A DNA stretch of 64,000 nucleotides from Nipponacmea schrenckii (lineage: Eukaryota; Mollusca; Gastropoda; Lottiidae): NCBI GenBank assembly GCA_030562195.1, contig CM060200.1, positions 40,273,084-40,337,083 on the forward strand, given 5' to 3'. The notes below the pieces were generated by a model. That model saw only the letters and a program-made list of their open reading frames with translations, searched no databases and was not told the DNA's origin. The position numbers and the translations under genes were made by a program. This document shows positions 1 to 40,411 of the stretch, piece after piece (position 1 is the stretch's first letter; each line of letters opens with the position of its first letter).

Positions 1-3000
1 AACTAAACTTACTAAACTATTCCCATTTATCACCATAGCGAACTCTCCACATTCTTCTGTATTATTGGGAACATGCCCATTGGAACGTCCATTAGCTATC
101 ACTACCCCAGATTCTTCCTTTCCACTTTTCAACGCCTTAATTTGATAGACAGCTGCTTGTAGTTCTTTCTGAACCTCCTCCGACGAATCGGAACTGATGA
201 CAAATGGTTCCTCCATCTCCTCTGTGAGTAGTTTACAGGAATAGCCGATATTGATGGCAGTTTCTGAAAAAAAAATACAGAGAAAAATATACAAACACCT
301 GACACCACTTGCCAATGAGTGTATCAACTTTATCTTAGTAAGTCTATTTTTTAAAAATTTGGTAGCTCTTTCAGAGAGTCCACATAGCTAATGATGTTTA
401 TTTGGTATTTAGGTGAGCACTGAGCTCTTATTCTCGAAATCTTAACTTAAAATGACTTCATTATTCATTTGCTTTCTACTCCAAAATGTCGCTTAAGGAT
501 TATTATTTTAATATCATATTTTTACCTTGTTTGTCTCCAGTAAGAACCCAGATTTTAATACCAGCTTGAGCGAGATTAGCGATTGTTTCTGGTACACCAT
601 CTTGTAATTTATCTTCTATAGCTGTAGCTCCTATTAATATCAAATTCTTTTCGATTTCTTCATAAACTTCATCTAATTTATCATCACGATTTGTCATTGA
701 GGTACTGAAATATTAACACGATTGGTCATTGAGGTACTGAAATATTAACACGATTTGTCATTGAGGTACTGAAATATTAACACGATTGGTCATTGAGGTA
801 CTGAAATATTAACACGATTGGTCATTGAGGTACTGAAATATTAACACGATTTGTCATTGAGGTACTGAAATATTAACACGATTGGTCATTGAGGTACTGA
901 AATATTAACACGATTTGTCATTGAGGTACTGAAATATTAACACGATTTGTCATTGAGGTACTGAAATATTAACACGATTTGTCATTGAGGTACTGAAATA
1001 TTAACGTTTAGGTACAGATCCAAATCTGATTTGAAATGAAATGAAATGAATGGAGTTTTATATCCTACTGTTCTGCACCTTATGGGCTAATGAAGACGGA
1101 CAATGCCATGCAGTGAGCAATGAGGAAAATTTTGCCATGACTACAGCATTAGCCTTCTTTTTTTTGTGATTTCCAACTGTTGAGAGAATATCTGAATGGA
1201 AGACTGAATTGAAATATTATGACCTATATAAAAGTTATTATGAATTATTAAGTGTGTTATTTCTATTGTTAGAACCATTCATAGTTTCATACGGTTTAGA
1301 CACAACAACAAAACCACGTTAATGATTAGAAGATTGGTTCAAAATTAACTCTCCTTGCATCGTATATCTTAAGACCAAATATATAAAGAAAGGTCACTAT
1401 TATTGACCTATTATTTATATGATTTAGCAACAAACCTTGCAGCATGGTGTTTCTTTTTCCATGTCTCAAAAACATCAGCATCTAATTCTTTATAAGCTAA
1501 ACAGAGAGTTCGTAGTCCTGTTTGAGCAAAATCCTGAAGAAGAAAGAATAGAAAAGATTAAATAACATCAACATGTTTTCTAGGATAGAGGGACAGTTGG
1601 ATTGATGTTTGCTAGGATAGTGGGACAGTTGGATTGATGTTTGCTAGGATAGAGGGACAGTTAGATTGATGTTTGCTAGGATAGAGGGACAGTTAGATTT
1701 GATGTTTGCTAGGATAGTGGGACAGTAGGGATTGATGTTTGCTAGGATAGAGGGACAGTTAAGGATTGATGTTTGCTAGGATAGTGGGACAGTTGGATTG
1801 ATGTTTGCTAGGATAGAGGGACAGTTGGATTGATGTTTGCTAGGATAGTGGGACAGTTGGATTGATGTTTCTAGGATAGGGGAGGTTCTAATAATTATGT
1901 TTGCTAGGTATGACACTGGTTGATGTTTGCTAGGATATGCAGTTCGGATTGATGTTTGCTAGGATAGTGGTTGATAGTTAATTTATGTTTGCTAGGATAG
2001 TGGGCATTGTTTGCAGATATGAGGATAGTGAGGACAGGATTGATGTTTGCTAGGATAGTGGGACATTATGATGTTTGCTAGGATAGTGGGACAGTTGGAT
2101 TGATGTTTGCTAGGATAGTAGGCGTATTGATGTTTGCTAGGATAGTGGGACAGTTGGATTTGATTTGCTAGGATAGTTGGGCAGTTGGATTGATGTTTGC
2201 TAGGATAGTGGGACAGTTGGATTGATGTTTGCTAGGATAGTGGGACAGTTGGATTGATGTTTGCTAGGATAGTGGGACAGTTAGATTGTTGTTTGCTAGG
2301 ATAGTGGGACAGTTGGATTCATGTTTGCTAGGATAGTGGGACAGTTGGATTCATGTTTGCTAGGATAGTGGGACAGTTGGATTCATGTTTGCTAGGATAG
2401 TGGGACAGTTGGATTGATGTTTGCTAGGATAGAGGGACAGTTAGATTGATGTTTGCTAGGATAGTGGGACAGTTAGATTGATGTTTGCTAGGATAGAGGG
2501 ACAGTTAGATTGATGTTTGCTAGGATAGTGGGACAGTTGGATCATTTTTACTACCGGTAGTCTTGGATTCATGTTTGCTAAGTTTATATCATGTTATATA
2601 GAGGTTCTATTTTTCAGTCATAACACCTGGTAAATCTAACTGATAAAATATGCATTCTTATTCACCCAAGTTTGAAACTTTATGCCCATTTAGCATTCTT
2701 TCAATATGGGTATAAACACAATACTATAAAAAGGAAAACTTACATTAAGATGAATCAAGGTTGAATCTTTTAATTCTCTACATGAACTATCAAGTCTTTC
2801 AAATATCACTGAATCAGCTCCTTTACAATATAATCTTATTTTATTGTCTTTTCTTAATATCACCTGTTACAATATAAATAAACAAATTAACACATGTACA
2901 TTGTAAAGTGTTTACGAGAATATTCCAAGAACAAGGGCGATAACTGGTACTATTATTTTTCTGATTTTCAATAGAGTTTATCTTTTTTTTTGTGACATTG

Positions 3001-6000
3001 GTCAATATTGATTGGTCCATTCAAATGAAATGAAAGGAATGGAGTTTAAAGTCCTACTCTTCTGCCCCTTATGGGATTATAAAGACGGGCAATGCCATGC
3101 AGTGTCCAGTGAGGGACAGGACAGCAGCATTAGCCTATTCTTTTTGAGATTTCCAACTGTCGAGGGATCTTTAACATGCACAGCCTGTTTATTGTCCCAT
3201 CTGAACAACTTAAAAACTTTTTCCATATCAGTCCCTCTGACTTGCATCACTGTCATGGGAGGGAAAATGGGTTTAAAAATCTGAAAGTATAACCTTTGCC
3301 AGGAATGAATCATGGAGCCACCCCAGATCCCTATGGAACTTTTCAGAAGATTCTCTGACAGTATTGTATATTCAGCAATCTTTAAATCAATGAAATCCAT
3401 TGGTGATGTTTTGAAAAAAAATATAATGTCATTAGAACCCAATTGTGGTTGAAATCTGTTTAGATCTCTATGGAGACAAAAAATATCAAACAAAACAAAG
3501 AAATGAAATAAGATTTCGTACTTACAGACATGCGTTTACGAACATTATTAAAATCTAAAATACATAATAATTCATAGACTTCAATTTGACCATGAACTTC
3601 AATAGATATAGTAGCAGGTGTTCTCGACTGAAAAATATAAATAGCATGGTAAGAGAATGGAGTTTTACATCCTACTTATCTACAACATCAGTCAGTGTGC
3701 AATAAGGGAAGTAGCATCAGTAATAATGTTAAAGAGCAACCATCTTTATCCTGCACAAAAATCATATTTCTAAGAAATACCTCTCAAACTAGGAATTTCT
3801 TCCATTTTTAGGGCTTGATATGTAAATAGTTTAAGAAATACTAGAACAGCATATAAATTCATAATCTCTTCAAAAATACCTCAAACTTTCTATTTAATTT
3901 TGGTCTATAATATTTGTAAATAGTCTTCAGAATTACTAGAAATGTATAAAACTTTATTATCTATGTCTACTTAAATCTTGATTGGTTTCTCCCTGCCTGA
4001 ATATTGTAAATTCTAAATAGAAAAAACTTACCTTGAAAACAAAGCCAAAATTCCTGGCAGCTGAAACTAAGGCACCTTCATCAGGGGACTGGGCCTGATA
4101 CTCTAGTCTCCCTGCAAAAATATATATTGTCTTAAAATTCACACAACTGAGAGAGGAGACTTGTTAAATTTCCACAAGGAAACCATGTTTCAGATTTGTG
4201 ACCAATATCCATTCAGAATTATTTTGAAACTGGATCATTGAAATGGATATTGTTCTAACTGAATACCGTACATGGGACTTCATTTTAGGTAACAGATCCA
4301 TTAAACTGTATCAGCTGATAATGGCCTCCCTTGTCTGCCTCAAGAGAAAACCAACCGATAACAGTACCGACTTCAAAACTTAAGTTTTGTCAAAAATTCA
4401 AACTCAGTTTTTCAGAACAACTAAGAATATAAAATTTGCTCACCATCTTTCTTTGTTTCTGGCATCACTGTGTGACATAAAGCTAAATTACGGAAAAATG
4501 CCTCCACTTCCGTTTTTCCCTGTTTCACATCTTGTAATAAATGTGGGTCGTAAAAATCAAACGTTTCTTCAGCGTATGAATTACCAGAAAAATCAACTCT
4601 TGGCGTTCTCTATAAAATAACATTCATCATTACAAACATGGAATGAAATGAATGGAGTTTTACATCCTACTCTTCTGTACATAGTTAGGCTAATGAATAC
4701 GATCTATGTCACAATTAGGGAAATTTTGCCAGAACCGCTGTATAAGCCTACTCTTTTTGCGATTCCAACAGTCATGGACTTTAACATGTTCAGCCTGTAT
4801 CACATGATTTATTGTTCCATCCAAACAAAAGAAGACATCCAACACCATGCAGTGACATGAGCACTGATTATTCTTTATCAATTGAGAAGAGATAGATATT
4901 GTGGTAGAAGTTATAAACATACCTGAGTAACTTCCAATAAATTACCATATTCATCCATAGGATCTCCGTACGACTTCCCATTAATAGAGCACTTGTTAAA
5001 CGTCATGATATTCTATAAAATACAATCAATTCTTCATGAGATATAAAAAAAAATGAAATGAATGGAGTTTTACTTCCTTCTCTTCTGCACCTAATATGCT
5101 AATGAAGACAGACAATGTCATGCAGAATGCAATGATGAAATTTTGCCAGGACAGCAGCACTATCCTACTCTTATTGCGATTTCCAATCAAAAAACAAGAA
5201 AAGAAATTCAAATGAAAGATATAACCCAGAAAAGATAGCATAAATAAATACAAAATATAAGTCATTAAGAACAAGGAATATATGGATGTACTACCTCTAA
5301 ATTTATTACATACATCCATACATCCATATATTCCTTGTTCTTAATGTAGTATCCTACTTCTATATGTCTTATAAAGAATAAAATATAAGACCACAAAGAG
5401 AAATGAAAGGAAGTTTTATGTCATACTTAATTGCTCCAAATATGGCGAAGGAAGATGCTCTATGCCATGAGGTTTGTATTGAGAGAAATTTTACTTGGAA
5501 AGCATCATTTTTAATTTCCTCCTGTTGAGATATCTTTAATAGTCATAGCCTGTAGTACACAGGAACCTTACAAATGGACACTATTTTCACTGACAAAGGG
5601 ATCGTTGATGAAATTGCACCTTGGACCTAGGTAAGTGAGTAAGCATCAATGAGTTACAGAATTTCCAGGGAGATATAGGTATAACTAACTAACCTGTGTT
5701 AAAGTACCAGTTTTATCAGAGAAGATATATTCTATCTGACCCAGTTCCTCATTTAAAGTTGTTGTGCGAGCTTTAGCCGGGGTATCTTTTTTATCGTAAT
5801 ATAATTTTACATCCCAATTGATCCACAAACTATTTACTAGACGGATTATTTCAACACTGAAAAAATACCAAAATATTTTTTAATAATAACAGGGTTATAA
5901 CTATAAAGCAAGTTGGATAAAATAGATACAGTTTACTGTACATGGTTTAACATACACTGGAATTAACTGATTATAAACCTGACTGTAGTATAGAATACGG

Positions 6001-9000
6001 GAAAAGTTAACCAACTCTTTTCACTAATTCATAAATATGTCTGATTATTAATACAGTCCTACGAGCTAGCATGGGAAGCAGGTTTAGTTGATTGAATGGG
6101 ACAATAAACCGAGGCACTGTGTGCCACAGGCTATGTATGTTAAAGATCCCTCGAAATTGCAAAACTTATGCCCCCCCTGTCCTGGTAAAATTTCCCTCAT
6201 TGCTTCCTTTAAGAAGTTGCCCGTCTTCATTAGCCCATTCGGTGCAGAAGAGTAAGACGTAAATCTCCATTATTTCATTTTTTCACTTTAATATTACAGA
6301 ATTGGAACAACAGTGTTGACTGCGGACTGTATAACATAATGGCCATAGTTGTTCTCATGTTTCAACTTGACTACTGCTATATTCCACCCCTACCCTACCC
6401 TACCCCTGCCTCAACCAGACTACCAGAGCCTGCCCTAAATAAATAATCTTACCTCACATAGAGTGATATAGGCACGACAGTATTTAAAATAATGATATAG
6501 GACAAGAATACGAGAGCTCCTATAGTTGCTGCCCCTTGCTCTTTATTTTCATTAACGAACCACTCCCAGGGAAGGTATTTCTGATAGTCGTAACCAACCG
6601 CTGTTTCCCACACACCACACGCTATTGTAGTGATTAGGCACATTGTGACCAAAAATAGAAAAATCTGAAAAAAATAAAACATAGGAATTAGTAACAAAAT
6701 AGGATTTGAACAACATTTAGAAGTTGAGTGTAAATATAACAAGAAAAGTGTGGTGCAGTTGTACCATTTAACATTTCCTTGTGTTCTTTTATAGAAACAA
6801 AATAACTAAGCAATTATTATGTGTAATTTTATGGATAGTTACTTAGTGTTTTATGGATAGTTACTTAGTGTTTTATGGATAGTTACTTAGTGTTTTATGG
6901 ATAGTTACTTAGTGTTTTATGGATAGTTACTTAGTGTAATTACTATGGATAGTTACTTAGTGTTTTATGGATAGTTACTTAGTGTTTTATGGATAGTTAC
7001 TTAGTGTTTTATGGATAGTTACTTAGTGTTTTATGGATAGTTACTTAGTGTTTTATGGATAGTTACTTAGTGTTTAATGGATAGTTACTTAGTGTTTAAT
7101 GGAAAGTTACTTAGTTTTTATAGATACTTAGTCTTATGGATGGATACTTAATTTTTTAGACAATAAATTAGTTGTATAGTTAATTACTATAGAAAATTAC
7201 TCAGTGTTTTATAGGAAATTACTTAGTTTCATAATTATTAAGTGTTTTTTGGAAAATTACTGAGCTTTATGAATAATTACTTAGTTTTATAGATAACTAC
7301 TACGTTATTTAGAAAATTGCTTAGTTTTATGGATAATTGCTTAGTTTCATAGATAATTATTAAGTGTTTTTTGGAAAATTACTGAGCTTTATGAATAATT
7401 ACTTAGTTTTATAGATAACTACTACGTTATTTAGAAAATTGCTTAGTTTTATGGATAATTGCTTAGTTTCATAGATAATTATTAAGTGTTTTGTGGAAAA
7501 ATACTGAGTGTTATGAATAATTACTTAGTTTTATAGATAACTACTAAGTTATATAGAAAATTGCTTAGTTTTATAGATAACTACTAAGTTATATAGAAAA
7601 TTGCTTAGTTTTATGGATAACTACTAAGTTATATAGAAAATTGCTTAGTTTTATGGATAATTGCTTAGTTTCATAGATAATTATTAAGTGTTTTGTGGAA
7701 AAATACTGAGTGTTATGAATAATTACTTAGTTTTATAGATAACTACTAAGTTATATAGAAAATTGCTTAGTTTTATAGATAATTACTAAGTTATATAGAA
7801 AATTGCTTAGTTTTATTGATAACTACTAAGTTATATAGAAAATTGCTTAGTTTTATAGATAATTACTAAGTTATATAGAAAATTGATTAGTTTTATTGAT
7901 AACTACTTAGTTATATAGAAAATTGCTTAGTTTTATGGAAAATTGCTATGAGTTTCATGAAGTTATCAAAATTGTTTTGAGGGTGACAAGACTGATGCTA
8001 TACTACTATTCACTAGTATCCAACAGTAAACTGAACTTCAATACGATAAATATTTGGTAATATTCATCATAATTGGAACTTAAACTTTCTGAACTTATTG
8101 TCATACATCACATCACAATAACAAAACAATCTGATCATCAAACTTTAATAACAAATACTCACTCTAATAATAAGCAGATTCATCAGTCTATCTATATGGG
8201 TGCGTTTAAATTTGGTCTTCCCAGAATTCATCATTAACTTAGTATCTCTTCCGGCGAATATAACCAAACCATAACACCAGGCTGTATTACGTAGTATACA
8301 ACCACGCAGTAAAATCTTCTCATTATCTAACGAATATTCTTGATTATTCATCGTTAACTTGCCTTCAAATTTACTCAATCTGTTGTTTGGAGGTTCACAT
8401 AATATTTCAGCTATAAAATAAATATATACTGGCACTCAAATAAAACTAACATACAAATCTATTATTCTCTAGCTGGGGATTAAGTCATTATTAAAAGATC
8501 CATGATGTATGTACAATATCCTGAAAACAATGTCGAGAATAAGGTTCATAGTTTGAAGTTTGAAATAGGATTTTAACCAACCAGAAAACTGATCCATTTT
8601 ACTGTGATTATCTTCTAAAACAGCTGTATCATTTAATGCCTGCTTCACTTTTAAATTCGTCTCTCTATAAATATATAAATCAACATAAACATGTTGTTAT
8701 AAAAGGCAGAAAAAACTTGATTATTATATAAATAATAATAATTTAAATATACACCTAGAGGCAGAAAATTATTACAATAATAACTTAAATAGACACCTAG
8801 ATACACAAGCCAATCCTCACTTGGATCTTTCTTCTATAATAGCAAACATCATAAGCAAAAAAAGGCAATTTATGCCCGACCGACCAAACAAATCAGCCAA
8901 AATACAAAAAACAGATTTATCATAATATGTTTCCAGAAGTTTCCTATAATGCCCATGTGTTAAGTTAACCCAGGATCAGTGATATATCTGGGTTACTTCT

Positions 9001-12000
9001 AGGGACAGGATCCTCATTATAAAAATCTTACCCATCTAATTCAGCCGTTTCTATATAACACAAACTATTCGGTTCACTGGCAGATAGTAGTAATAAATCA
9101 GCCTGAAAATAACATTAACCTGTAGCACTTATCATTTTACATCATTGAGGTTTGGAATTCCCCTCATATAAAACCTCACATTTTTAAGGTAGGTTTCCCC
9201 AACCTTGAAAACAAAAATAGTGGAATTTGAGCTTTAGAGCTTAAAAGCTTATGTGTGGTTAAATCCACCCTCTAGACTAGCCATCATCAGGAAACATATT
9301 GAAAAATTGGGGTTTATAGAAACTTACAGCTACAAATTCATTATTTTGAAGTTTGATAATATCCCCCACCATGACCTTATGCCATCTTTCTTCAATCAAC
9401 TCTCCGTTCCGCAGCACGTACGATAATCGGTTGTTCACGATATCATCGTTACGATGTCGTTGCTAAAAATAAATATATCATAAATCTACATTTCCAAACT
9501 ATTAAAATAGATTTAATGATATTATCTTTATGAAAAATTTACAAAAGTTCTTGTAAAGCAATTTAAATTAATTTAGTCAATTTTTTTAAATACTTTTGCT
9601 GATGAAATAGAACATTATTTTGAAAAAAATGGTTTCTAACGATATCAATATTTTCTGCCCTGATTTATTGTCCTATTAACAATTTTTAAGAATTTGAGAT
9701 TTTGTCAATGTTTTCATTATATCTTCTGAGACAGAAAAACTTATGGTTGTTAAAATTTTATTAATAATTATATTTCTATTTTGGTTTGAAGTGTGAAATA
9801 TAAATGAGTAAAATATGATAATATATAATAAAGGATGTAAGGGTTAATGGAATTTAGAGGAAATATTATAATAATTGTTTCCTTCTATTATTTATCAGAG
9901 ATTATTTGACCTTCAGTTTGAATTTATACTACGAATATAACTAAAGCCTAGTTCAGGGGGTTATAAGATATACTCTCCTATAGAAGCACTGGTCTAGGTT
10001 ACAAGTATTAGGTGTTATAAGAGATACTCTCCTATAGAAGCACTGGTCTAGGTTACAAGTATTAGATGTTGTAAGAGATGCTCTCCTATAAAAGCACTGG
10101 TCTAGGTTACAAGTATTAGGTGTTATAAGAGATATTCTCCTATAGAAGCACTGGCCTAGGTCAAAAGTATTAGATGTTATAAGAGATACTCTCCTATAGA
10201 AGCACTGGTCTAGGTTACAAGTATTAGGTGTTATAAGAGATGCTCTCCTATAGAAGCACTGGTCTAGGTTACAAGTATTAGATGTTGTAAGAGATGCTCT
10301 CCTATAAAAGCACTGGCCTAGGTCAAAAGTATTAGATGATGTAAAAGATACTCTCCCATAGAAGCACTGGTCTAGGTTAAAAGTATTAGATGTTGTAAGA
10401 GATGCTCTCCTATAGAAGCACTGGCCTAGGTCAAAAGTATTAGATGTTGTAAAAGATACTCTCCTATAGAAGCACTGGCCTAGGTCAAAAGTATTAGATG
10501 ATGTAAAAGATACTCTCCCATAGAAGCACTGGTCTAGGTTAAAAGTATTAGGTGTTGTAAAAGATACTCTCCTATAGAAGCACTGGCCTAGGTCAAAAGT
10601 ATTAGATGTTGTAAGAGATACTCTCCTATAGAAGCACTGGCCTAGGTCACAAGTATTAGATGTTATAAGAGATACTCTCCTATAGAAGCACTGGCCTAGG
10701 TTACAAGTATTAGATGTTATAAGAGATGCTCTCCTATAGAAGCACTGGTCTAGATCACAAGTATTAGGTGTTATAAGAGATATTCTCCTATAGAAGCACT
10801 GGCCTAAGTCACAAGTATTAGGTGTTATAAGAGATACTCTCCTATAGAAGCACTGGCCTAGGTCACAAGTATTACATGTTGTAAAAGATACTCTCCTATA
10901 GAAGCACTGGCCTAGGTCACAAGTATTAGATGTTATAAGAGATAATCTTCTATAGAAGCACTGGCCTATGTAGAGACTATGCTATGAATTTCAGAATATA
11001 TCATTTTGATAAGAAATTATCTACTTCTGGAAAGATTTACAATATAAACTAGATAAAAAAATACAGAAGAGTAGGATGTAAACTCCATTCAATTCATTTA
11101 ATTTTTAATGTTTAGTCAGAATACCTAATAGTTACAGTGTTTTAATAATTGATGTTTCTAATCAACTATTACCTAGCCTTATTTTTTATTCTCTAGATTT
11201 AATAAGTCAGCTAAATAGTCAATGGAATTTAGATCCTTTATAATTGGAGATAGTAAAAGTAGGCTAATGCTGATGTTCTGCCCAACTGTCAGGCTGTAGT
11301 GGAATTATTGTCAATGACAAAAGAAGTAAGTCTATTACTACCACTCTGTTAGACTTTAGTGGAATTAAAAGTGAATAAAAAATTTGTCATGATGAAAGTG
11401 GCAGGAAGTTTCTGGAGTGATTGATGTCTAGTCTCCTCTGAGTCAAGACAAACTGACGTAAAGTGACAGAGCAGTTAATGATCATTTCTTTATATCAAAT
11501 CATCTGATTCCTTCAGTTTTATATATTATTGATAGGAATTTGGGGGTGAGTTTTGATAGAGTGGAGGGGGAGTTATTTTTATTCATATTATTGACAGGGT
11601 GGGTGGGGGAGGGGAGTTATTTTTCTTTTATTTATTGACAGGAGTTGGGGGGGGGGGTGATAGTTTTGATAGGGTTGGGGAGGGGAGTTTTTTTCATTAA
11701 TATATTATTGACAGGAGTTGGGGGTTGATAGTTTTGATAGGAGTGGGGAGGGGAGTTATTTTTCATTCAATATATTATTGACAGGAGTTGGGGGGGGGGT
11801 TGTGAGTTTTGATAGGAGTGGGGAGGGGAGTTATTTTTCATTATATATTATTACAGATACATTGTTTTTTGACAGTTAGAAGTGGATTTGATTTATGCCT
11901 CCTTTGAAATAAATTTGAGGAAGAACATTATCATCAAATGGCTTTTCATTGACTAACAACAATTTCATTATCAATATTAAACTGAAACAACTTATCAAGA

Positions 12001-15000: not shown

Positions 15001-18000
15001 TTAAATAAAAGAGTTATTTTCTTATACCCGTGTTGAATTTAAAAGTGTTTATGTTTATTCAGACTGTATTATATATATTTCTATTATAACCGACATATTC
15101 GTGTTCCAGACAGGTGGATTGTTATTAACATAAACGTTTAAATAAAATGCTTTAATAAGGTATATAAACAAATTCAGAAGATATATGAAAACATTGAAGT
15201 TGATAAATCTTTAAAAATATCATTTGATTAAATCATATGTTAACATTGATATTTGTTATATTAAAATCAAAGTTAAAAATTCTTGACAAAATAATTAATT
15301 AAAATGTTATAATTCATTAATTAATATGATTATTAGCTAGCTTGGAATAAAGTTAAAGATACTAGGCACATTCAGAATTGTTTCTAAGTTTAGATATTAA
15401 TATTTCTTTAATCAAAGTTGATCATCAATATTTCTATACAATTTCAAAAGTAAACACAACTAGTCCATTGAATTCTAAGGTAGCTAAGTAGTCATGGAAA
15501 CAATTTACAATAAGCGGTTCTATTTATTCTACCAAAACCAACAAACTGTTTTTTTGTATCCATGATGCGCACAAATATCTATAGCAACTAAAGTTGATGA
15601 ATCTTTGACTTCATTTACCACTTAAACTACCTCAGAATAAAGTGGACTATTCCTGTTTATTTTTAGAAACATTACTGCATGTGCATAATCATCTTTGACC
15701 TACTAAAATTCGCTATAGTTGATAAAAATATTAGTGGCAGTGCTAAAAAACAGGTCTCACAGCAGTTTTCTCTCACCCCAACCTCAACATTTTATTGTTT
15801 ACTCAAGACTAATATATATCATAATATTACATTTAAAGTAATACTGTATCTTAGAAAGGACATAAAATTTCAGTTCTCAAGAATGGTCAATATGAGTATA
15901 TATTCATCAGTGAACTTACCTGGTGTCATAAAGTAACAGAATCCCTGTAAAATCCAGATAACTCACAAAACTAAGTCATTTTGAAAAAAGCTTAAGCAAT
16001 TTATTAAGCGTTTTTCAATAATCAAATGCATCTTTATGGATAATTACTTAGTTTTGGGATATTTACTTTCATTTTTGAAATATTTATGACAGCATGTATA
16101 TTTACTGATAAATAAAGCTCTTATTTGCCAAGTTTAAAATTTTCAAGTTTTATGTTCATTCTAAGATCTATTATCCCTTTAAAATTAAACATAAGTTCAA
16201 TCTGTGTATAAGCAAACAATAGAGAAACCTTCACCCAAGGAGCCAATAAAACCATTGCAGCATAGATACACCATAGATACACCAAATATTATCTAGATAC
16301 ATCCAAGTTATCACATTGTTCTATTTAATTCTTTTTAATTTATCTGATGCTATTTGAAGGAGCAAAACTCTTGATGGAAATTTCTGTTCAAGGGTCCAAA
16401 TAAGATTTGAGTTGAAAAATTCAAATAAGATTTGAGTTGAAAAATTGTATTGTCCCCATGGGCGTATTGGACCTAATTCTGACCCATTAAAAATAAAGAG
16501 TTTAACTTTTGAAAATAGATAACAAACACAATCCCAAGATATATCTGATAAAATTCTCTAGTAGGATTTGTTTATCATCAGCGCCTATTTCATGCTCAAT
16601 GTTTTATTTCTGGTGAGCGAAGCAACCAAACTATACAAAACAGATCAAAATAGCGTGAGCTGTGTAGAGATCATAATGAAACCATTAGATAACCCATGGC
16701 AACACAAATATTACATAGCTGAATTCTAAACAGACAGTCCCAAACTTAGAATCAGATTTTGATTTGATGAAAGAAATTGTGATAACCTGATGTATCTGAT
16801 AATTTTCAAATTTTGAATGTACGGAAAAATAAAAGTTAAAAAACTCACGAAATCATCCACGGCATCTTTTATAATAGTAACACTGATTACAGCCACTAAG
16901 GGGATGATGGTTGTAAGCGGAGTTAGGGACGAAATCACAGGAAGCAACTGAGAGAGAGACAGAAAAAAAACCATGTGCCGTGTCAGCGTTAAAAATGAAA
17001 GTAGAAATACCAGTGTGGGAATCAGGTGGGAACACTAGCTAACAGTGATGTTTGGTTTGTATTTGATAAATTTTTAGGTTTTTTTGAAATTTCATAACAA
17101 AATTGGCTCATATTTGAATTTTTTGTTTTTTTAATTCTTTTCTTCTCAATACCCTTAACTCCCCTTGTGAGCAAAGCTGGATATAGTGTACCAGTCATCT
17201 ATTTGACACCCCTCAACTTTCTAATGAACTCTTCCTCACATGCATACCTTCTATTGATATGATACTGTATATGTATAATTGGAAGAGCTCATTTGTAAAA
17301 TTAGGTGTGTTTTTAGTTGCCTGTGAAGTTATATCAATCCTTGCTTGTGAGGGAAAGCAAGATTACATATTCTGTCATAAATTTCATAAATTATCTCAAG
17401 CTAATTTAACCATAAACCATTAAAATTTATCAAATACAAACACATACAAAACAAGTATAAAACTTCTAACCACCCTAAGACTATATTCTGAAAACTGTGA
17501 AATGGACTTAGCCAAACATTTTTAACTCTTCACAATTTTGTTCTTTATTTAGATTTTAAATTACATGTCTGGAAAAATTAGTCTGTTTTAAAAATCTCCG
17601 TGATTTCAAACAAACGTTTCAAATTATCTTTTCTTGACATACGATCTAACTTCAATTAGAATTTGATTTTTTAATTAACCGATTGTGAATTTTGAAGAAA
17701 GGAGAGGTCTGATATTTCTAGGTTGTCTTTTTGGAAGAAGACTAAATGAAACTTTCAATCGTCAAGTTAAAACTCATATTAATTCAAACAAGTGCTGAAA
17801 AAAAACTTTTTAAATTTTTAATCAGCACTGTGTTCAAATCAAGTTAAAGTTTTTCCATCTACTTAAGTTCCACCATCTGTCGATATCTGAAATCGGAACC
17901 CACATGGTACTTTCTGTCTACTTTCCAAAACTACCAAGACAGGTTAGATCACTCAGTCAAAATAAAAATTCTACCCCTAGTCATATAAAGTATAAGTCCC

Positions 18001-21000
18001 CATGTTAGTTTATTGTTTATACACATGCATATATTTCTATAAAATACAAAATGATAACAGCATGCATTAAATACAGTTAATTCTACAGAGAGACTGGAAA
18101 AATGAGACTAACCTTTTTATTATTCATAAAGTCTAAACAACAAGTATTAGAATTATCAAATTTGAACCAGTATCAAAACTGAACCAGTACAGGTCGTAAA
18201 ACTGAACCAGTATCAAAATTGAACCAGTAAAGGTCTCAAAACTGAACCAGTATCAAAATTGAACCAGTATCAAAACTGAACCAGTATTAAAACTGAACCA
18301 TTAAAGGTCTTTAAACTAAACCAGTATCAAAACTGAACCAGTATCAAAACTGAACCAATATCAAAACTGAACCAGTAAAGGTCTCAAAACTGAACCAGTA
18401 AAGGTCTCAAAACTGAACCAGTATCAAATTAGAACCCGGTATTAAAAAAGAATTCAAATGACAGAAATATCAAAACAATCTCCTTATTTTATTTTTCTAA
18501 TTATAATTAACAGAACCTGGTGCTTTAATTTTATTTAATTAACCATAACAACATGTTATTCTTAGAAAGATTCATTCAAAAAATTTCAAAATCTGGATTC
18601 CATAAAATCGCCGACTATTCTCCCAAATTTTGATTAATCTCACATTTTTTTCTCAAATATTTCAACTTACATGTCAAGATGGTGATATAACTTGGAAATA
18701 TTACTTCCCTTATAGACTCCACTGACAGCCGATCAACCTTTCAATAAATATTGTCTTGTCTTATAAATTCTTAAAACTAAATCAGATAAATATGGAAATT
18801 TTTTCCCAAATATTGATTGCTTTTTTCCATGCTATCAATTTTAGCTTCAAGATAAAGTTAAAAAGAACATCAGTATAATCTCTTTAACTATATGTACCCT
18901 CTTATAGGATGACAAGTTGTCAAACTTAATCTTTCAAGATATTGTAAAGTGATTTACTTAATTTTAATGTGTATTGTGGACACAGACGTGTGTTTGTGGC
19001 AATTCCACCAAAACTTAATGTTTGATGCCATCACAAACAGCAAGGGCCTTATGGTTTCTCTTTATAGTATATATTTGTTATTAGAATTGTAGGAACGACA
19101 GACATCTGATTGAAAATCTAATTCACCAATGCTCATTACAAATTTAAAAAACCTTTTTACAATCCCTTTAAAGATAAAAATAACTTGCATCAATAATGCC
19201 ACTGAAATCCCAGTAATTATTGAGGAGCAGGTCAATTAAAACAAACATATTGACATCTAAACTTACTAATTTGATAAATATTTAATACACCAGAACAGTA
19301 TACCAGTTAATCCTGATATCTGGGTTCAGGTACTATGACAATCTAATCAATCTTTTTTCGATTCCAAAACGATATATATTCTATAACTGTTGTTTGAATG
19401 TTATGAATATTTATAAAAATTGTCTCATTTTCTACCAGTCTTCAGAAAGAAGAATTAATATATATGTAATAACAATATAGAAGGAAGCCACTACAAACAA
19501 GCGTGTTAGCAAGCAAGGTGCAACGTGCAGGGGGGTGAACTACTTTTGAATCCTGATTACAGTTTATCAAATCGCTGTCCATACAGGATTCAATTTAAAA
19601 CAACACTCAAAAATATAAAATGTTGCCAATGAAATCTGATAGGACAAGACAGAAATTTTTGCGGAGGGTCGAAAAAACATCTGCCTACGATTTAACAACT
19701 TGTAAAAGGTTTCACTGACATTGCTGTGACTTACAAAATCATCAATGGCATCTTTTACACCCGAAATGGTGAGTACGAAGACCAATGGAATGACAGTAGT
19801 TACGGGGTTCAACGAAGAAACAGCAGGTATCATCTACGGTAACAAAAATTACAAAATTTCACATCAGATGGATGGTTAAATGGATGGATGGTATGGATTG
19901 AATCAAAAAATAGATGAATGAATCTTTGATGGATGAGTTTATGAATAAATGGAAAGTGGATTGATGGATGAAAATGAATAAATATATCGATAAAAATCCA
20001 GATCTAGATGTTTATTTTTTATATTTTCTCTGGGTAACTATAGAAACCTAGATTGGATCTGTTGAGTAACTATAGAAAACAAGACCTGGATCTGATGAGT
20101 AACTATAGAAACCCAGACTTTTTGAGATTGTTCTAGTTTGAGTAACTATATAAACCTAGATCTGGATCTGTTGAGTAACTATAGAAACCAGACCTGGATC
20201 TGTTGAGTAACTATAGAAACCAAGACCTGGATCTGTTGAGTAACTATAGAAACCTAGATCTGGATCTGTTGAGTAACTATAGAAACCAAGATCTGGATCT
20301 GTTGAGTAACTATAGAAACCAAGACCTGGATCTGTTGAGTAACTATAGAAACCAAGACCTGGATCTGTTGAGTAACTATAGAAAACAAGACCTGGATCTG
20401 TTGAGTAACTATAGAAACCAAGACCTGGATCTGTTGAGTAACTATAGAAACCAAGATCTGGATCTGTTAAGTAACTACAGAAACCAAGACCTGGATCTGT
20501 TGAGTAACTATAGAAACCAAGACCTGGATCTGTTGAGTAACTATAGAAACCAAGATCTGGATCTGTTGAGTAACTATAGAAAACCAAGATCTGGATCTGT
20601 TTGGTAACTATAGAAACCAAGACCTGGATCTGTTGAGTAACTATAGAAACCAAGACCTTTTGGAAAATACTGTTGGGATTTTTAACTATAGAAAACCAAG
20701 ACATGATCTGTTAGTAAATATAGAAACCAAGACTGGATCTGTAAGTAACTATAGAAAACCAAGACTGAATCTGTTAAGCAACTATAGAAACCAAGATCTG
20801 GATCTGTTAGAAACCAAGACATGGATCTGTTGAGTAACTATAGAAAACCTAAATCTGAATCTGTTAAGTAACTATAGCAACCTAGATCTGGATCTGTATT
20901 TGAATCAGAATGTAAAGTACAATACAAGTTAGTAAGCAATCCCTATCCCATGTTTTATAATGATAGTATGTATATACATCTGATGTTACAGCCATTTAAT

Positions 21001-24000
21001 TCTATATAGATGCATATATAATTTATATCTCATGCATATATAAATAATCTAGTTATAGAAAAAGGTCAAAGGTCAATAGAAAGGACATGCACAGTCTGTA
21101 AGAAGTTGGTGTTATTTGTTTTAGTCTGATAAATGGTGGTCAAGGGTTCTAATTCTAGTCAGTCAATTTCAGAGATCTTGAATAAGTCATCTCTGTTCAA
21201 TATTCAAGTTTGTCAAAAGATGTGCAAAATAGAAATAAAGAGTAGTTCTCTTTTCTGAAACATAGTTGATTCTTTCATTTCTTTTTAAACCAGCAAGTTT
21301 CTTTGAAAATCTGGGCCACTTCAAATGGAAGGTAATCAATTGAAACCAATTGTGTTGTGCATAACAAGGATAAAAACCCAAGTCACGAGTCTGAGTTGTC
21401 AATAACACATACTTGGTACCTGATATAAAGATCATTATATACACTAGCTAATCAATATCATAACAGTATATTGAGTGGCTCGACAACATTCCTCATTTCT
21501 AGATTACATGTATTTATAAAGTTATCAATGATAAGATCATAATAACTAAACCAGATAATTATAGATATCTAGATATTGGACATCTTCTCACTAAATTACA
21601 GCGCAAAGGGATACTGCATCTTAGCATGAACATAAAATTTTGGTTCTCAAGAAAGGTCAATATGAGTATATATTCATCAGTGAACTAACCTGGTGTCATA
21701 AAGTAACAAAATCTGGAAAACTCACAAAACTGAGTCATTTTTTAAAATTGCTTAATCAATTTATTAAGTGTTTTTCAATAATAAAATGCATCTTTATGGA
21801 TAATTACTTAGTTTTTTGGATATTTTTTTTTATGTTATTTATTGCAGCAGGTATATTTACTGATAAATAGAGCTCTTATTGGCCAGTGTAAAATTTTCAA
21901 ATTTTATGTTCATTCTAAGACCTATTATTCATTTAATGGGCTTTCCCTAATAACTTGTCCAAAACTATAGTTATTATTGTAAGTTCTAATATCTCTATAA
22001 TTATGAGGTTAATATATTATGGTTTTAACTTTGATAACTTTTATAAATCCTGAAAAGAAGAGTAGCCTGTTTTCTGTACCACTAGATGTACTCCATGCTT
22101 CATACATTCTAGATACAAGGATATTCTCTCCCCACCCCCCTCATCTTTTACCCCGATACCATGCTCAATGTGTATTTCTCTTATCAATATCATACTGCCT
22201 TAAACAACCCCAGGAAAAAGTAAAAAAATTTCTGCAATGATAGATCACTAAAACTTCTATATATAAAACAGAACAATTTATGCATTTTGCCTGAATGTTT
22301 GAACATCAATATTTGCAATTTGCATGTCAGAGCCTCCACCCAAACATCATGAAGTATGACCCAAACAATATAGTTCCATGCTTACCTGTAAAATAAGCAG
22401 GCCCAGAAAATAGGCGTTGGCCAGACGCTGGAATTGTTCAAACAGATTTTTTGGCAGGAACGTGAGTACATTGTACTTGGATGTACTGATGTAGTTGTTC
22501 TGAAAGTATCAAAAATTAAAATTTAGATCTAATTCGGTGGGTCAGTGAGTTGGATACTTGCTTGTTAACCTGAAGGTCCAGGGTTCGATCTCAGCAAAGG
22601 TCGAGATGAACTTTCAGATTGTTCAACCCAGTTTCCCCCTGTCAGTGATGCAGGTCAGATGGACTTATATGAACAAGTAGTGTCTATCAGGACACCCCCA
22701 CCCCCAACACCCCCAAATTCTACATTTCTGAATCCTTGGGGTAAAGAAGACAAACTTTGTCAAGACAGTGCCACTAGACCCTGCATTATTAAAACTTCAT
22801 TTATTTTACACTTTCAATAAAAAGATGTAAATTTAAAATCAGCGTTGAGACAATCTTTGTTTACCCATTTAACCCATATCCTCGTTGTCATTGTCAACAA
22901 CCTAATATTTTTAAACCATGGTCTAACAAACTACTCTAGTTGAAAACATTATTGATTTTAACAGGTTTTTTATATTAAATTACAATGAATCTTGTTAGAA
23001 AATCAATGATTGATTTGAAATAATGGAGAGAACAATGGTTTAAATCTTTTATAGTAAGATATTTAAAGGTATTATCTAGGATGCACGGTATTATTAGATC
23101 ATTTCTATAAAGGGTCTGATATTTCTCATAAAATAATGATAAAATTCAAAAAATGACATGAATTGAGTTTTACATCCTACTCTTCTGTACCTTATTTAGT
23201 TATCTCCTAATTACATCCAACTTGATAAACAGATATTGATTATATTGTACTTGAAAACTTGGTGGGGGGGGGGGGGTGTACAATACATATACAGTTTGCC
23301 AAGGGGGGGATCTCATAATAAAGGTTGAGAAACACTGATGTAGATGCTAGACCATTGTATATATAAAAATGAAATGAACATGATTGGAGTTATACATCCT
23401 ACTCTTCTGCACCTAACGAGCTAGTGAAGACGATGAAATATAAAAGTTAACTTACAGCATATTCAAAACTATTGTTATATTCGTGATCGTTGCATTTAAT
23501 TCTTCTTTCTAATTCTGTAATAATAAAATAAACATTTATATCATCAGTTAAAAGTTCGTATCACCCTTAGACACGCTAACCGGGACGACTCACATGATTT
23601 TGTAAATAATAAACCAATCAAAGCAAATCGTATCAAAGATCAAGGGACACCAACACTGAGAAAGATGAATGCTAAGAGGTTTGGCCAGCTGGACCAGCTG
23701 GTAGAAAGGATCCCCAATCTATTCTTATATCAAAGTGTCCCACCTAGCCTTTTAAATAACCAAAAACATAGAACCTAACATGTACAGTTGATAGAGCAAA
23801 CAATTAATGTAATTAAAAGGAGCTATACAAATTTAAAAAACATTATTATTATTATTTTATTGAAAAATTTGAAAAAACAACTGTGCTTATAATTGGTAAT
23901 TAACAGAATACTGGTTTTTGGCAAAGGTCGGGAAAATACAGGCTTAAGAAAGCTATTCAAGAGAATAAAAAAATTTTTTAAAAAAATGAACCAGTGTTTG

Positions 24001-33312: not shown

Positions 33313-33650
33313 ACATCCTTGCCTTAGAATGAACATAAAATTTAAAACTTGGCCAATAAGTAAACATCTAGACATCAGTAATTATATCTGCTGCCATAAA
33401 TAACATAAAAAAATAAATAAATATCAAAAAAACTAAGCAATTACCGGTATCCATAAAGATGCAATTGATTATTGAAATAATAATTTGATTAAGCATTTTT
33501 AAAAAAAAGACTTCGTTTTGTGAGTTTTCCAGATTTTAAGAGATTATATTACTTTATGACACCAGGTAAGTTCACTGATGAATATATACTCATATTGATC
33601 ATTCTTAAGAACTTAAATTTTATATTCATGTTAAGACAAAGTAATATATG
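33313..33650. mobile_element. Palindromic MITE copy
   Basis: CTTAGAATGAACATAAAATT at the left, TTTATGACACCAGGTAAGTT (donor motif, plus strand) in the right arm, and a right end decayed around GTTAAGACAAAG. 32.78-33.3 kb upstream is AT-rich with no gene seen. Confidence 0.75.
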
Positions 33651-40070: not shown

Positions 40071-40411
40071 TTAAAGGGATAATAGGTCTTAGAATGAACT
40101 TGAAATTTTAAAATTTTATAATTTGTCAGTAAGAGCTCTACTCAGTAAACATACCTGTTGTCATAAATAACATAAAAAAAATATCCAAAAAACTAAGTTA
40201 TCATCCATAAAGATGCATTTGATTATTGAAAAACGCTTAATAAATTGATTAAGCGATTTTCAAAAATGACTTAGTTTTGCGAGTTTTCAAGATTTTAAGA
40301 GATTCTGTTACTTTATGACACCAGGTAAGTTGACTGATGAATATATACTCATATTGACCTTTCTTGAGAACTAAAATATTATGTTCATGCTAAGACCTAT
40401 TATCCCTTTAA
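40071..40411. mobile_element. Palindromic MITE, best-preserved ends
   Basis: Left end TTAAAGGGATAATAGGTCTT, right end AAGACCTATTATCCCTTTAA. The inverted repeats extend about 29 bp with one mismatch. The right arm holds ATGACACCAGGTAAGTTGAC (perfect donor CAG|GTAAGT) and the centre ATCCATAAAGATGCATTTGA. There is no coding capacity. The TTAA/TA-rich ends could fit a piggyBac- or Tc-type origin, but the target duplication is not certain. Confidence 0.85.

Follow-up and report, generated by a model that had tools for sequence, protein, structure and literature searches.

A stretch of 64,000 nucleotides from the limpet Nipponacmea schrenckii (assembly GCA_030562195.1, contig CM060200.1, positions 40,273,084 to 40,337,083 of the forward strand; hereafter the window) carries on its minus strand an intact gene for a P4-ATPase of the ATP8B type. 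This gene contains two neighboring exons, here called A (first copy) and B (second copy), for the same part of the first pair of transmembrane (TM) segments. We analyzed the gene, the two exons and their counterparts in other molluscs.

An ATP8B gene with a tandem exon pair

The gene was mapped by tblastn with the Lottia gigantea protein P0004, which it matches exon by exon. The mapped region extends from window position 23527 past window base 1, which it overruns by about 3.5 kb, and 19 of the 23 aligned pieces are more than 88% identical to P0004, making this protein the likely orthologue (tblastn against 90 kb). The script used for the junctions accepted GT or GC donors with an AG acceptor; all 21 mapped junctions are GT-AG. 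A start exon was not found in this mapping with P0004. The mapped part of the N-terminal exon (23456..23527), located with the same protein, encodes 24 residues and ends at the donor GCT/GTAAGT. It is followed by a constant exon ending in FLGLLILQ (22386..22499, donor at 22386), exon A (19735..19833), exon B (16849..16947) and a constant exon starting with QRHRNDD (9328..9462), which was placed by tblastn and its splice sites and encodes the start of the actuator domain. Thirteen more constant exons are present in the window (13..9102). The P-type motifs DGET (split over two exons), DKTGT and TGDK and the TM4 motif PISL can all be read in the tblastn exons, and GDGAND is located just outside the window.

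The first 399 residues of the gene model score 100 bits with exon A and 95 bits with exon B against the Pfam family PF16209 (PhoLip_ATPase_N; cut-off 29). The nearest relatives carry the names ATP8B, ID or IM, and the best match in PDB is ATP8B1. Judged by its sequence, the gene is a member of the ATP8B group of P4-ATPases; its product is predicted to flip lipids with a CDC50 partner. Tandem repeats are located in and upstream of the gene (window 10.0-11.0, 12.4-14.3, 20.2-20.7, 25.4-28.2 and 30.0-30.4 kb); they were recognized as repetitive minus-strand open frames.

An earlier note on this DNA had described A and B as two phase-0 exons of 99 nt, encoding alternative TM1-TM2 hairpins with 18 of 33 residues in common. 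The coordinates, the length, the phase, the bordering AG and GT and the number of identical residues were all reproduced. Each exon encodes the end of TM1, the luminal turn and TM2 (ATP8B1 residues 132-164); the description as a hairpin holds for these parts, but the complete TM1 is not included. The flanking exons are single, as the note had also stated: when the Lottia protein was searched against the 90 kb, each of the other exons could be placed in full no more than once. On the DNA level, A and B are identical at 62 of 99 bases; of the 18 residues in common, 7 are encoded by the same codon, and at fourfold sites the copies match in 3 of 10 cases. Since so few shared codons and fourfold sites agree, the two copies look old.

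A search of the whole 399-Mb assembly (G000, with the window on contig C9) using B as query gave B itself as the best match (E 8e-13), followed by A (E 2e-8); two matches on contig C13 were weaker. A profile of 113 hairpins recovered A and B from the window with E values of 2e-19 and 3e-15, whereas the match ranking third had an E value of 1.2, and no third copy of the exon was detected in the window with this profile. Open stretches of 99 nt with splice signals at least as strong as those of the weaker of the two exons occur five times in the 64 kb, counting both strands; two of them are A and B, and a third overlaps a real exon of the ATP8B gene. As is typical of tandem duplicated exons, A and B are adjacent homologous exons of equal phase and length (99 nt, phase 0, 18/33). 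B is the canonical hairpin and A the diverged one.

The exon pair in other molluscs

The earlier note had named restriction of one copy to this assembly as a refutation. This case is excluded: both copies, in tandem and with identical boundaries, are present in protein models from three mollusc classes, namely P0123 of the snail Littorina saxatilis (V1264_002281), P0148 of the pearl oyster Pinctada imbricata (FSP39_023456) and P0133 of the argonaut Argonauta hians (isoform X1). The copy carrying TPLTT is the second one in all three tandems, as it is in the window. Among the 225 fetched proteins with a recognizable hairpin, these three are the only ones with two copies; the remaining 222 have a single one. 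The protein searches listed 120 of 588, 6 of 6 and the best 120 of 2,499 matches, and the query length of the first search confined candidates to about 377-1199 residues. Among the matches listed, hairpins of the A type are found in nine gastropod species (10 clusters).

Two Littorina isoforms are complementary with respect to the pair: X1 (P0131) contains the second copy (B) only and X2 (P0124) the first copy (A) only. They differ at 15 positions in 1256 residues each, and all differences are located within the swapped exon. The isoform names are those of the database listing and denote models, the underlying RNA of which was not seen. P0123 agrees with X2 before and after the tandem pair and is therefore the product of the same gene. 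In addition, four bivalve-like entries labeled 'lgn' (P0152, P0161, P0164 and P0182) have one hairpin of the first-copy type each; they look like cDNA because their contigs comprise only 4.3-6.9 kb for 1220-1257 amino acids. In the other bivalves either of the types is seen, and across oyster species both are represented.

Exon A is identical to the Littorina first copy at 27 of 33 residues, and exon B to the Littorina second copy likewise at 27 and to the Lottia protein at 30, compared with 18/33 and 20/33 for the cross-type comparisons between limpet and Littorina. When the two gastropods are compared with Pinctada, first copies share 17 residues, no more than cross-type pairs (17-20), while second copies share more (22-23). 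A tree was calculated from 48 hairpins, selected by us among those of the window and the 225 proteins; its 33 columns are unable to settle a single versus a multiple origin. In this tree the gastropod first copies form a well-supported cluster (98/88), with the long-branched first copy of Argonauta included, and the bivalve first copies are found near vertebrate hairpins, apart from those of the gastropods. The approximately unbiased (AU) test rejected a private duplication in the limpet (p-AU 0.014, one of four AU tests, uncorrected). The three other groupings tested were not rejected, with p-AU values of 0.123 for a clade of first copies, 0.615 for one of second copies and 0.609 for one of gastropod hairpins, each taken as a whole. 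The pair is thus old within gastropods. Copies are assigned by their order in the four tandem cases only; in all other groups the assignment is by resemblance.

The first copy of Argonauta P0133 is very diverged, with Phe at the T143 equivalent, a KSAIDDI end and a long branch, and may be degenerating or specialized. A crab model (Chionoecetes opilio P0003) was considered as a tandem copy in arthropods and rejected: a larger TM1-TM2 block is repeated in it and the second hairpin is garbled, probably due to a fault of the gene model or the assembly. It was left out of the hairpin counts, the profile, the tree and the AU tests.

Position of the exon pair at the lipid gate

Human ATP8B1 (phospholipid-transporting ATPase IC; PDB 8ox4 and 7py4) is the best PDB match of the flanks together with exon A (E 7e-34). 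The alignment to the solved chain is clear and Q131, T143 and T144 are at the same places; the solved chain contains the segment once, however, and no alternative version was seen. In ATP8B1 the lipid headgroup is bound, in successive states, by Q131 of M1 and by T143 and T144 of M2 (PMC11225554). ATP8A2 residues Q95, Q96, A119 and E123 are equated with G230, A231, T254 and D258 of Dnf1, where lipid choice is set in yeast (PMC4937031).

Alignments to ATP8B1 and to the equally long span of Dnf1, together with the published numberings, place the Q131 equivalent at the final codon of the upstream exon, where it is the last constant residue. Positions 1, 12, 13, 24 and 28 of the exon are equivalent to A231, T143, T144, T254 and D258, respectively. 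The swapped exon thus begins at one residue of the entry and exit gate of yeast Drs2/Dnf1 (PMC4937031) and holds two more; in yeast the gate differences are found between separate genes, whereas in the limpet splicing would choose between them. The location of the swapped exon therefore fits a role in lipid choice.

Among the matches listed (the best 120 of 2,499 and the other listed ones), the A-type clusters of gastropods have Ala12, Phe19, Ser24 and Glu28 in 10 of 10 cases, and the B-type clusters Thr12 and Asp28 in 10 of 10 and Thr24 in 8 of 10; these tallies are partly circular, because the groups were assigned by resemblance. Bivalve first copies have Thr (5/10) or Ser (5/10) at position 12 and Asp28 throughout (10/10). 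Within the clusters tallied, the full set of A-type changes is confined to gastropods. In the limpet, exon A keeps Thr12 and Asp28, and Phe19 and Ser24 are present. Of the sites named, position 1 (Met in A, Leu in B) and position 24 (Ser in A, Thr in B) differ between the limpet exons, in addition to 13 further positions. That the A and B pumps have different lipid preferences is a reasoned hypothesis.

Probable alternative splicing and competing explanations

The acceptors of A and B score -1.5 and 1.9 bits, compared with 3.5-14.0 bits for the constant acceptors of the gene (n = 20). The donor of B scores 3.0 bits and that of A an ordinary 6.7 bits, with constant donors at 3.8-12.4 bits (n = 20). 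Three of the four alternative splice sites are thus weaker than any of the 20 constant sites of the respective kind, and such weak sites fit regulated exons. A hydropathy scan (17-residue windows, threshold 1.4) of the protein with one copy gave peaks over the TM1 end and TM2, with shoulders; without a copy no peak was left, and with two copies an additional, third strong hydrophobic peak appeared before the actuator domain. A protein containing both copies or neither should be mis-threaded in the membrane. Since two copies or none would upset the topology, exactly one should be used.

Taken together, these results make it likely that the limpet ATP8B gene contains an ancient tandem exon pair, the members of which are joined alternatively to give two gate-variant pumps. 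The earlier note had proposed mutually exclusive splicing. Alternative use is well supported by relatives, namely the Littorina isoforms and the tandem models; we infer the exclusive choice in the limpet, as well as a tuning of lipid handling at the entry/exit gate, and three relatives' models hold both copies.

Several observations weigh against this reading. All combinations of A and B stay in frame and all sites are GT-AG, and no exclusion mechanism (short intron, clash of splice-site classes, frameshift or competing RNA stems) was recognized at A and B. The limpet exons are identical at the T143, T144 and D258 equivalents. P0133, a named isoform, P0123 and P0148 are models with both copies in one protein. 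In Babylonia areolata, P0129 and P0144 are ATP8B paralogues, 80% identical and encoded on different contigs, of which one has the B type and the other the A type; here the splice forms were perhaps divided between duplicate genes. Furthermore, only the B type was seen in Lottia and Patella, and only the A type in Elysia, Plakobranchus and Aplysia. The database was clustered at 90%, which hides sister isoforms, so that counts of single-type species say little; the Patella entry is an isoform X2, the X1 of which is hidden by this clustering.

With respect to exclusion, A and B are separated by 2,787 nt (16948..19734), and steric exclusion therefore does not apply. Given this long gap, GT-AG at all sites and a frame that is always kept, no simple enforcing device applies. 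Many mutually exclusive tandem exons have no known exclusion mechanism, and such a mechanism is thus not defining for this class. As regards competing RNA stems, the longest complementary stretches were rejected as an exclusion device because they are a dispersed repeat. Within the intron upstream, 36 nt could pair with two other stretches, of which one is located beyond exon B; this sequence is the inverted end of a dispersed repeat of about 300 bp, and the end has 10 matches in the window, where 0.02 are expected. Such complementarity was absent from 10 shuffles, yet it was found at three of four other stretches of the window (11, 3, 13 and 0 pairs, compared with 3 here). The repeat is like a miniature inverted-repeat transposable element, has inverted ends (AAATTTTATGTTCATTCTAAGA) and is located at window positions 15849-16166, 21619-21920, 33322-33636 and 40087-40395.

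The same three tandem models, and the fact that joining A to B keeps the frame, would agree with a flippase that carries both exons in one mRNA and hence an extra TM segment. In such a protein the third hydrophobic peak precedes the actuator domain and the cytosolic domain would land on the wrong side; moreover, the Littorina tandem model belongs to the gene of X2, X1 and X2 have one copy each, as do the four cDNA-length bivalve-like entries, and we regard double inclusion as very improbable. That only one exon, probably B, is functional, with A as a decaying remnant that seldom or never enters the mRNA, is somewhat less improbable, though still unlikely: A has the weakest acceptor scored and B is the type in the models seen of Lottia and Patella, the nearest relatives, but A is open and well conserved with respect to the Littorina first copy, Phe19 and Ser24 are kept in all gastropod A-type clusters and in the limpet, and Littorina X2 uses A. 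An assembly artefact or a collapsed paralogue, for which the separate contigs of the two Babylonia types could be quoted, is hardly credible, since A and B differ at 37 of 99 bases, are located on one 42.8-Mb contig between single flanking exons and recur in the same tandem order in relatives.

What the swap does is a separate question. It is quite possible that the exons are alternative and that the swap alters folding, CDC50 pairing, turnover rate or autoinhibition rather than lipid choice; the identity of A and B at the T143, T144 and D258 equivalents would agree with this, and conservative exchanges between hydrophobic residues account for many of the 15 differences. Lipid choice is favored by the Ala/Glu of A types versus the Thr/Asp of B types at T143 and D258 in gastropod clusters (10/10 each, groups by resemblance), by the Ser/Thr difference of the limpet exons at the equivalent of Dnf1 T254, and by the influence of TM1-TM2 residues on the lipid choice of yeast flippases (PMC12424579, PMC4937031). 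As to origin, the pair might have arisen independently in gastropods, bivalves and cephalopods, which we consider possible with some reservation: the position of the bivalve first copies near vertebrate hairpins in the 33-residue tree points this way, as does the p-AU of all gastropod hairpins together. The groupings of all first and of all second copies were likewise not rejected, however, and order and boundaries agree in four of four tandem cases, the window included.

For the preferred reading, two alternatively joined exons in one ATP8B gene, the following course can be proposed. An ancient tandem duplication of the exon for ATP8B1 residues 132-164 would have been followed by selective retention of the two copies. 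During splicing, either A or B would be connected to the constant neighbors on both sides, which would yield two pumps with the same sequence everywhere except in TM2, the luminal turn and the outer end of TM1. We tentatively suggest, with some reservation, that a single pair was already present in the common ancestor of the gastropods, bivalves and cephalopods and that splicing swaps the lipid gate of molluscan ATP8B. The Gln that binds the headgroup would come from the constant exon, and the threonines of TM2 as well as the residues of the exit gate from the alternative one. The A form, which in the tallied gastropods except the limpet has Ala at T143 and Ser/Glu at T254/D258, would handle another set of lipids than the B form, so that one gene would have two cargo specificities.

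The earlier note knew of no P4-ATPase in which this hairpin is swapped by exon choice, and none was found in the open-access literature, where the broader matches listed were judged by title or the start of the abstract and mostly left unopened. Among the nearest cases in this literature, the Caenorhabditis elegans P4-ATPase genes tat-1 and tat-2 also have splice variants, but these concern the final five exons (tat-1) or the first two and the penultimate exons (tat-2) and no duplicated TM exon (PMC2572054). The tandem duplicated exon substitutions of human and fly genes are mutually exclusive, mostly ancient homologous exons that retune membrane proteins, as is proposed for the pair described here, and are rich in ion channels; 'ATP8', 'ATP11' and 'flippase' have 0 occurrences in its main text, however (PMC9741552). 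In Crassostrea virginica, a duplicated exon 10 of AOX is alternatively spliced, which the authors call the first case in a mollusc; there a 3' exon of a mitochondrial oxidase is concerned (PMC5589949).

How lipids are selected by P4-ATPases is a matter of debate, which draws largely on mutants and on comparisons between different pumps. The Littorina isoforms and the limpet exons are natural pairs, each 15 residues apart within one gate exon. Side-by-side analysis of A and B forms would be a direct test of the TM1-TM2 unit as cargo determinant. If the swap acts on lipid choice, membrane lipid asymmetry would be tuned by splicing.

Two other genes were noticed on the minus strand of the window, both in roughly joined open frames: a gene with a trichohyalin-plectin-homology (TPH) domain at 49.2-50.8 kb, and a cyclin gene with Cyclin_N and Cyclin_C domains at 61.7-62.7 kb.

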